DNA of 64,000 nucleotides. Origin: an uncultured Eggerthellaceae bacterium. Lineage in GTDB: Bacteria > Actinomycetota > Coriobacteriia > Coriobacteriales > Eggerthellaceae. Shown piece after piece: positions 60,192-61,878 of this stretch. A program made the translations under genes and the position numbers. The stretch's first letter is position 1. Every line of letters starts with the position of its first letter. The stretch is from positions 1-64,000 of the forward strand of contig CATKXW010000011.1 of NCBI GenBank assembly GCA_949840905.1, given 5' to 3'. The notes under the pieces were generated by a model. That model saw only the letters and a program-made list of their open reading frames with translations, was not told the origin of the DNA and did no database searches.

Positions 60192-60253
60192 TTAAGGAAA
60201 CCCTAAGGACGAATCCATAAGGTGTCCATGGCCCGTTCATAGGTTCTTCAAGG
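60192..60253 (+). promoter_or_regulatory. Phased repeats upstream of the small-RNA promoter
   Basis: TTAAGG (60192), CTAAGG (60203) and ATAAGG (60217) are spaced 11 and 14 bases apart. TTCATAGG (60236) and TTCAAGG (60247) are spaced 11. The second pair ends nine bases before TATACT, replacing a normal -35, as in PhoB-class activated promoters. The first repeats also lie just upstream of the rarA -35. Confidence 0.5.
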
Positions 60254-60261
60254 CGCGCTCT

Positions 60262-60267
60262 TATACT
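60262..60267 (+). promoter_or_regulatory. -10 element (TATACT) for a plus-strand small RNA
   Basis: TATACT matches the consensus at five of six positions. A palindrome (CTGACGTCAG, 60266-60275) overlaps the predicted transcription start. The -35 region is poor and may depend on the phased repeats upstream. Confidence 0.5.
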
Positions 60268-60273
60268 GACGTC

Positions 60274-60412
60274 AGCAAGCAAGAGGTTTCATCCCTCCTC
60301 CTCTTCCTCGAGCTTGCCTGCTTTCCTTTTCAAAGCAGATGGCACCCGAAAGGGTGCCCCATCCCCTCTTACGCCCCCGCTGGGTCCCCACCCACGGGGG
60401 CGCCTTTTCTTC
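60274..60412 (+). ncRNA. Predicted structured small RNA with CU-rich loop
   Basis: No coding frame with a ribosome site is present. Reading plus strand, four hairpins follow the promoter. The first has a 12-bp stem (60275-60286 with 60300-60317, six-base bulge) and a 13-base loop containing TCCCTCCT. The second is a 7-bp stem (60318-60338). The third pairs GGCACCC and GGGTGCC around a GAAA tetraloop. The last is the terminator. The CU-rich loop is complementary to Shine-Dalgarno sequence, suggesting translational repression of mRNAs. Hairpin polarity (GNRA loop, terminal U-run) supports the plus strand. I do not recognise a known RNA family. Confidence 0.5.
60372..60411 (+). terminator. Terminator at the end of the small RNA
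   Basis: CGCCCCCG pairs with CGGGGGCG, with an inner TGGGT/ACCCA stem and CCCC loop, followed by CCTTTTCTTCT. The U-run exists only on the plus strand, so it does not serve the minus-strand symporter gene. Confidence 0.8.
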
Positions 60413-60456
60413 TCACCTTCGAGCAGGCAGCGCGCACGCGCATTGCAACGCCGACC

Positions 60457-61878
60457 TCAGGTGTGCTTGGGGAACTCCCCTTGCTCGCCTATCTCCACCG
60501 GATCGCCGTGAGAGGTGAAGTCGCTGTAGCCCACCGGCTCCGATATCTCCGGAAGCTCCTCCTCGTCCACCAGCGAGTAGTCGTTGCTCTTGAACACGCC
60601 CACATCCAGCATGCCGGTCAGCTTGGCCATGCACATGGTCACCACTGCGTCTCCGGTGATGTTCACGGCCGTGCGGCCCATATCCAGCAGACGGTCGATG
60701 CCCATGATCATGGCGATGCCCTCGGCCGGAAGCCCCACCGACTCGAACACCATGGCTAACATGATGGTGCCCACCCCCGGCACCCCAGCCGTGCCGATGG
60801 AAGCCGACACCGCCGTTATGAGCACCGTGAGCAGCGCTGTGGCCGGCAGGTCGATGCCGAAGGCCTGGGCGACGAATATCACCGCCGCCCCTTGCATGAT
60901 GGCGGTGCCGTCCATGTTGATGGTGGCACCGAGCGGAATGGTGAACGACGCGATGCGCGCATCCACGCCGCACTTCTCCTCCAACGTCTCCATGTTGAGC
61001 GGGATGGTGGCGTTCGAGGAGCTGGTCGAGAACGCGAACAGCATCACCGGGAACATCTTGCGCAGGAAATGGAACGGGTTGAGCCGGGTGAAGAGGAACA
61101 GGATGACCATGTACACCACCAACAGCTGCACGAACAGACCCAGATACACCGTGCCGATGAACTTCACCATGGGCAGCATGCCCTCGATGCCCAGATTGGC
61201 GAACGTGCGCGCTATCAGGCAGAAGATGCCCACCGGTGCCACCCGCAAGATGACGCCGATCAAATGCATCATGATAGCGTTGAACTGGATGAAGAAGCGG
61301 TTGACCGTGCCCACCTTCTCGCCCAACCTTCCCAGCACGAAGCCGAGGACCAGTGCGAAGAAGATGATCTGGAGCATGGTAGCCGAGGTCATGGCCGCGA
61401 AGATGTTGGTGGGCACGATGTTGATGAGCATCTCGGCGACGGTCTGGTCGGTGGTGGTGACCGACGGCTCCACCGAGACCACCTTCGTCATGTCCAGGCC
61501 CACGCCCGGCATGGTGAGCTTCGCCAACCCGATGGCCACCAAGATGGCCACCGCCGTGGTGCACAGGTACATGAGGATGGTGCCCATGCCCACCTTGCCC
61601 AACAGCTTCGGGTCGCTCATCGATGCCGCGCCGCACACGATGGAGCAGAACACGAGGGGCACTACCAGCATCTGCATGAGGCGGATGAACCATTGCCCCA
61701 GCACGTAGAAGACGCCCTCTATCACGAGCTCGTCCGCAGGAGAGCCGGCGGGCACCGCCACCGAGCACAACAGGCCCACCACCACACCGGCGATGAGCGC
61801 TCCGAGGATCCATGTGGTGAGCGATGTGCTCTTGCCCGGCTCCTTCTTGGAGCCGACAGCTCTTTCAGCTCCGGTCAT
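60457..61878 (-). CDS. Dicarboxylate/amino acid:cation symporter (DAACS family)
   Basis: 473-aa membrane transporter of the GltP/DctA/SstT type. The serine-rich hairpin motif FSTSSSNATIP, the NMDGTA motif and the C-terminal DRLLDMGRTAVNITGD are present, with about eight helices. The substrate is probably glutamate, aspartate or a C4-dicarboxylate, driven by sodium or protons. The GGAAGGA site supports ATG 61878. It is followed by the small-RNA locus on the opposite strand. Confidence 0.92.
   Translation of the reverse strand: MTGAERAVGSKKEPGKSTSLTTWILGALIAGVVVGLLCSVAVPAGSPADELVIEGVFYVLGQWFIRLMQMLVVPLVFCSIVCGAASMSDPKLLGKVGMGTILMYLCTTAVAILVAIGLAKLTMPGVGLDMTKVVSVEPSVTTTDQTVAEMLINIVPTNIFAAMTSATMLQIIFFALVLGFVLGRLGEKVGTVNRFFIQFNAIMMHLIGVILRVAPVGIFCLIARTFANLGIEGMLPMVKFIGTVYLGLFVQLLVVYMVILFLFTRLNPFHFLRKMFPVMLFAFSTSSSNATIPLNMETLEEKCGVDARIASFTIPLGATINMDGTAIMQGAAVIFVAQAFGIDLPATALLTVLITAVSASIGTAGVPGVGTIMLAMVFESVGLPAEGIAMIMGIDRLLDMGRTAVNITGDAVVTMCMAKLTGMLDVGVFKSNDYSLVDEEELPEISEPVGYSDFTSHGDPVEIGEQGEFPKHT

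Follow-up and report, generated by a model that had tools for sequence, protein, structure and literature searches.

Several small RNAs (sRNAs) with C-rich motifs serve as points of reference for the locus described here. LhrC of Listeria is a multicopy sRNA under two-component control, and its C-rich motifs, which lie in a stem-loop, in an unpaired stretch and in the loop of the terminator, have been shown to bind mRNA (PMC4132741). In Actinobacteria, the C-rich loops of 6C/B11 repress targets by acting on 5' leaders (PMC10470900). UCCC-type motifs also block Shine-Dalgarno sequences in RsaE/RoxS, FsrA and other UCCC-motif sRNAs (reviewed in PMC4132741).

The window analyzed in this work, a stretch of 64,000 nucleotides from an uncultured Eggerthellaceae bacterium, contains an sRNA that appears to work like LhrC and mycobacterial 6C while being a member of neither family. 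As in LhrC, redundant C-rich sites are found in a stem-loop, a linker and the terminator loop. The RNA has one to four copies per genome in relatives and a single copy in the window's own genome, and a promoter array of the two-component type is predicted from the sequence. It differs from LhrC in having four hairpins instead of two stem-loops, in its promoter elements and in the phylum of its host. With 6C it shares the C-rich loops and an actinobacterial origin. The 6C sRNA has two C-rich loops, and we know of no tandem copies or phased array for it. UCCC-type motifs are common to our sRNA and the RsaE/RoxS and FsrA group, with no sequence or structure match to them in Rfam.

Searches of Rfam release 15 at the gathering threshold and at E 10 gave chance-level scores only, which agrees with an earlier sequence-only reading of this DNA that had recognized no known RNA class. 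The best model on the window was ar14, with 17 bits against a gathering threshold of 58.8. The LhrC model (RF00616) scored 15.2 bits on a typical member of the family (gathering 110, E 6.3) and did not match the window, and the 6C model (RF01066) matched neither the window nor 18 relative loci at the gathering threshold, nor at E 10. Because neither model matches, we file the family with neither LhrC nor 6C. The titles and abstracts listed for sRNAs of Eggerthella, for RNA motifs of Coriobacteriia and for noncoding RNA of Eggerthellaceae (covering few subscription papers) include no paper that describes the RNA.

Anatomy of the sRNA locus

A gap of 311 bases separates the start of rarA (60145, minus strand) from the end of a dicarboxylate-type symporter gene (60457, minus strand), and these coordinates confirm the gap size given previously. 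Both neighbors lie opposite to the sRNA, whose elements are as follows.

60212 to 60254, plus strand: phased promoter array of four 11-bp units, with CA at 60216, 60227, 60238 and 60249
60262 to 60267, plus strand: -10 hexamer TATACT, from the sequence
60274 to 60410, plus strand: predicted small RNA of about 137 nt, from covariance model R1 trained without the window and from the fold (z -7.34)
60275 to 60317, plus strand: hairpin 1, from the fold, unpaired probabilities and covariation in helices 1 and 2
60318 to 60338, plus strand: hairpin 2, CUGCUUU..AAAGCAG, the most conserved stem of the sRNA
60341 to 60358, plus strand: hairpin 3, GAAA loop at 60348-60351, with a stem sequence free to vary among species
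60359 to 60371, plus strand: C-rich linker CCAUCCCCUCUUA, single-stranded, unpaired in the window RNA
60372 to 60412, plus strand: intrinsic terminator with a U-rich tail, stem 60372-60402, UCCCCA loop

The sRNA start at 60274 was deduced from the spacing to the -10 hexamer. The minimum free energy of 60274-60412 (plus strand) is -63.4 kcal/mol, compared with a mean of -38.1 kcal/mol (sd 3.45) for shuffled sequences, and none of the 200 shuffles folded as well. The four consecutive hairpins that had been proposed are present in the fold. The terminator and the TATACT element described in the sequence-only reading are also there, and the U-rich tail follows the last stem on the plus strand only. 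The window has the GAAA tetraloop, but conservation of this loop does not extend to relatives.

The loop of hairpin 1 (60287-60305) contains UUUCAUCCCUCCUCC and is longer than the loop of relatives (YUCCCCU). Within it, UCAUCCCUCCU is exposed and UUUCAUCCCUCCU is unpaired with a probability of about 1.0. Unpaired probabilities indicate that CAUCCC in loop 1, CCCC in the linker and CCCC in the terminator loop (60386-60389) are all single-stranded in the window RNA. The C-rich exposure earlier ascribed to hairpin 1 was therefore correct for its loop but is not limited to it, extending to the linker and the terminator loop. Most sRNA copies carry two to four (U)CCCCU(CC) motifs, and the linker consensus of the family, AUCAUCCCCUCCUU, forms a conserved column block in alignments A5 and A7.

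The 58 sRNA copies compared range from 111 to 146 nt with all three length classes modulo 3 represented, their median plus-strand ORF is 6 aa, and no complete ORF is conserved across them. The length variation and the short ORFs argue that the region is non-coding, as had been claimed. A small minus-strand ORF, AAGGAGGGGATGATG, was considered and dropped, since neither its length nor its frame is conserved. On the minus strand, no terminator-like site was reported at 60413-60457, the stretch from the symporter stop to the sRNA terminator, and transcription may therefore read through antisense to the sRNA.

Distribution and structural conservation of the family

With the window sequence as query, BLASTN detected relatives in two genomes of the window's taxonomic family, and a search with one of these relatives located the RNA in 74 of 138 genomes of that family. 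A first covariance model (R1), built from eight relatives with the window left out, recovered the window at 59.5 bits (E 1.5e-9; E-values in these genome searches are per genome and, owing to a shortened calibration, rough). Among 398 genomes of the class, an enlarged model of 59 copies, window included, detected the RNA at E 1e-4 or better in 105. Of these, 92 belong to the window's own family and 13 to other families of the order (f2, f5, f6, f7, f8 and f9). The latter are weaker members, the weakest family matches being those of f6, f7 and f9 (roughly E 5e-6 to 3e-5). No match was listed for f4 or f10 among the 398 genomes, and in the phylum sample searched, all matches came from the window's family. 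The exact 20-base loop-1 pattern gave three hits in genome contigs, all of them unrelated. Copy number in relatives is one to four per genome, often in tandem, and the window's own genome has one copy; most relatives within the bacterial family keep the RNA. Collectively, the comparative data indicate that a genuine small RNA of a conserved family is encoded in the gap upstream of rarA, and that this RNA, judged by its homologs, is not confined to the rarA locus but is a multicopy family of the order. At three loci (L072, L073 and L074, from G034, G063 and G023, respectively) the sRNA lies between rarA and galU, unlike the window, where additional genes intervene between these two genes.

We then consider the structure in 58 distinct copies, using an alignment fitted to the covariance model because MAFFT, with three or 28 copies, misplaced hairpin 1. 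Standard pairs occupy 96.7% of the 1881 helix cells, and every helix has two-sided changes, which occur at all 34 pairs; these counts are inflated in hairpin 2, where about 17 rows are off by one column, and in helix 3 some of the changes counted reflect a register shift of one column and are not compensatory. The structural argument is carried by hairpins 1, 3 and 4. The covariation score is 0.551, whereas shuffles gave 0.155 and sliding the partners gave no more than 0.092. GU/UG wobble cells outnumber AC/CA cells (48 vs 17), identifying the plus strand as the folded strand. Stem pairing is thus kept in relatives, and the comparative evidence supports the sequence-only reading in its central proposal, a plus-strand sRNA with C-rich single strands complementary to Shine-Dalgarno sequences.

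A phased promoter array upstream of the sRNA

A second defining feature of the family, absent from the sequence-only reading, is the phased array preceding the -10 hexamer. In 27 non-redundant sRNA promoters, T1, A2, T3, A4 and T6 of the hexamer are invariant, and CA dinucleotides at -46, -35, -24 and -13 from its first base, in exact 11-bp steps, are invariant or nearly so. A TTGACA-like -35 element is absent, its position being occupied by the array. The sequences preceding TATA(A/C)T can be aligned over 75 bases without a single gap in each of the 41 copies with a canonical promoter that were examined. A position weight matrix made from the 27 promoters, the window's own among them, gave the window 48.4 bits, whereas the best score in 36 scans of base-shuffled loci was 6.7, and in the loci scanned it found nothing comparable to the array except sRNA promoters. 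The array also lies ahead of 23 of 33 more divergent copies, members from other families of the order among them. The RNA models contain no promoter sequence, and the array beside the RNA copies, which have differing gene contexts, was found independently of them. Some second copies lack the array. In two loci (L013 1193-1319 and L022 1224-1349), the upstream tandem copy has TATAAT without the phased array, and these copies are possibly regulated differently for that reason.

The location of the sRNA in a short intergenic gap would also suit a cis-acting leader or attenuator, or the 3' end of a neighboring gene. However, both neighbors in the window are on the opposite strand, the sRNA has its own promoter and its own terminator, and RNA copies occur in varied surroundings, tandem arrays among them. 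The context largely refutes such a cis-acting or 3'-end origin, which we regard as very improbable.

Sites of PhoB/PhoP-type response regulators are laid out as four half-sites in 11-bp phase that directly adjoin the -10 box. By analogy, the geometry of the array is that of a PhoB/OmpR-class response-regulator site, and the promoter looks to be activated by a two-component regulator. One candidate is the PhoB-like regulator cognate to the pst operon, which would make the sRNA part of the phosphate-starvation regulon. At four loci (L060, L062, L064 and L066) the pst promoters match the sRNA array both in geometry (four 11-bp units) and in the distance of 11 bases to the -10 element, and in one genome (G074) the sRNA has a gene for a PhoB-like regulator about 3 kb away. 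In contrast, nearly all sRNA units have C in front of the phased A where most pst units have T or G, the units read TTCA in the former and TTTAC/TTTGA in the latter, and pst promoters score far below sRNA arrays with the unit matrix. A paralogous regulator would explain the data no less well. Because the pst units differ despite the shared period and distance, we treat the phosphate regulator as a candidate and not as a finding, and hold this assignment to be tentative and somewhat doubtful. None of the OmpR-family regulator genes examined was found to have the phased array in front of it.

In the window's genome, the pst operon (L058 2506-8161, minus strand) consists of pstS, pstC, pstA and pstB, followed directly on the same strand by genes for a response regulator resembling PhoB and a kinase resembling PhoR/PnpS. 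Its PstS (L058 7178-8095, minus strand) is circularly permuted relative to TIGR02136, with the C-terminal half of the profile first and the N-terminal half second. The permuted PstS is also present in G004, G023, G026, G034, G063, G096 and G104.

Proposed mode of action

A multicopy, two-component-controlled, trans-acting sRNA with redundant C-rich sites is the best explanation of these observations, and we consider it likely to be right. In the proposed mechanism, a PhoB/OmpR-class response regulator would bind the four half-sites of 11 bp that immediately precede the -10 hexamer, and transcription would start at about 60274 and end around 60410, at the intrinsic terminator. Once made, the RNA would present C-rich single strands in the hairpin-1 loop, in the linker before the terminator and in the terminator loop, which may pair with the G-rich Shine-Dalgarno sequences of target mRNAs and thereby block translation. 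From their complementarity, the exposed C-rich stretches probably act on the ribosome-binding sites of target mRNAs in this way.

We examined this complementarity in a duplex test in which start codons were picked blind to their Shine-Dalgarno sequences and the regions upstream of them were compared with gene bodies. For loop 1, the difference (ribosome-binding site minus body) was -2.28 kcal/mol, compared with -1.10 kcal/mol (sd 0.57) for shuffled loops, none of which was as low (0 of 40). For the linker, the preference for upstream regions in the same test was not beyond that of shuffles. Perfect linker complements near start codons revealed no target gene in common, and exact Shine-Dalgarno complements were rejected as a target finder since no gene recurred.

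Sponge RNAs such as CsrB carry repeated near-identical sites on stable hairpins and are encoded by several gene copies. The three to four near-identical C-rich sites, stable hairpins and several gene copies of our sRNA, as well as the failure of the linker-complement searches to find a conserved mRNA target, would be expected if the RNA were a protein-binding decoy whose C-rich loops titrate an RNA-binding protein instead of pairing with mRNAs. However, the C-rich motif is an exact Shine-Dalgarno complement (CCUCC), GGA, the motif used by CsrA decoys, is absent from the sRNA loops, and base pairing has been shown for sRNAs like LhrC and 6C, which have several C-rich sites (PMC4132741; PMC6486639 as cited in PMC10470900). 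We therefore find a decoy function unlikely and favor pairing with mRNAs. A bolder version of the pairing model, which we regard as a long shot, is that a dedicated OmpR-class regulator controls an order-wide core regulon in gut Coriobacteriia and acts mainly via the sRNA, whose linker AUCAUCCCCUCCUU would mimic the anti-Shine-Dalgarno tail of 16S rRNA and thereby damp translation across a wide range of mRNAs, not just of a few targets.

Implications

The layout of LhrC, with several copies, a two-component-type promoter and three redundant C-rich sites, recurs here in another phylum, suggesting a design that has a tendency to arise repeatedly. The promoter array offers a concrete route to the regulator. 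Given that we found neither an Rfam match nor a paper on a regulatory sRNA of this lineage, the family would, if our reading is true, provide a first handle on post-transcriptional control in these gut bacteria.
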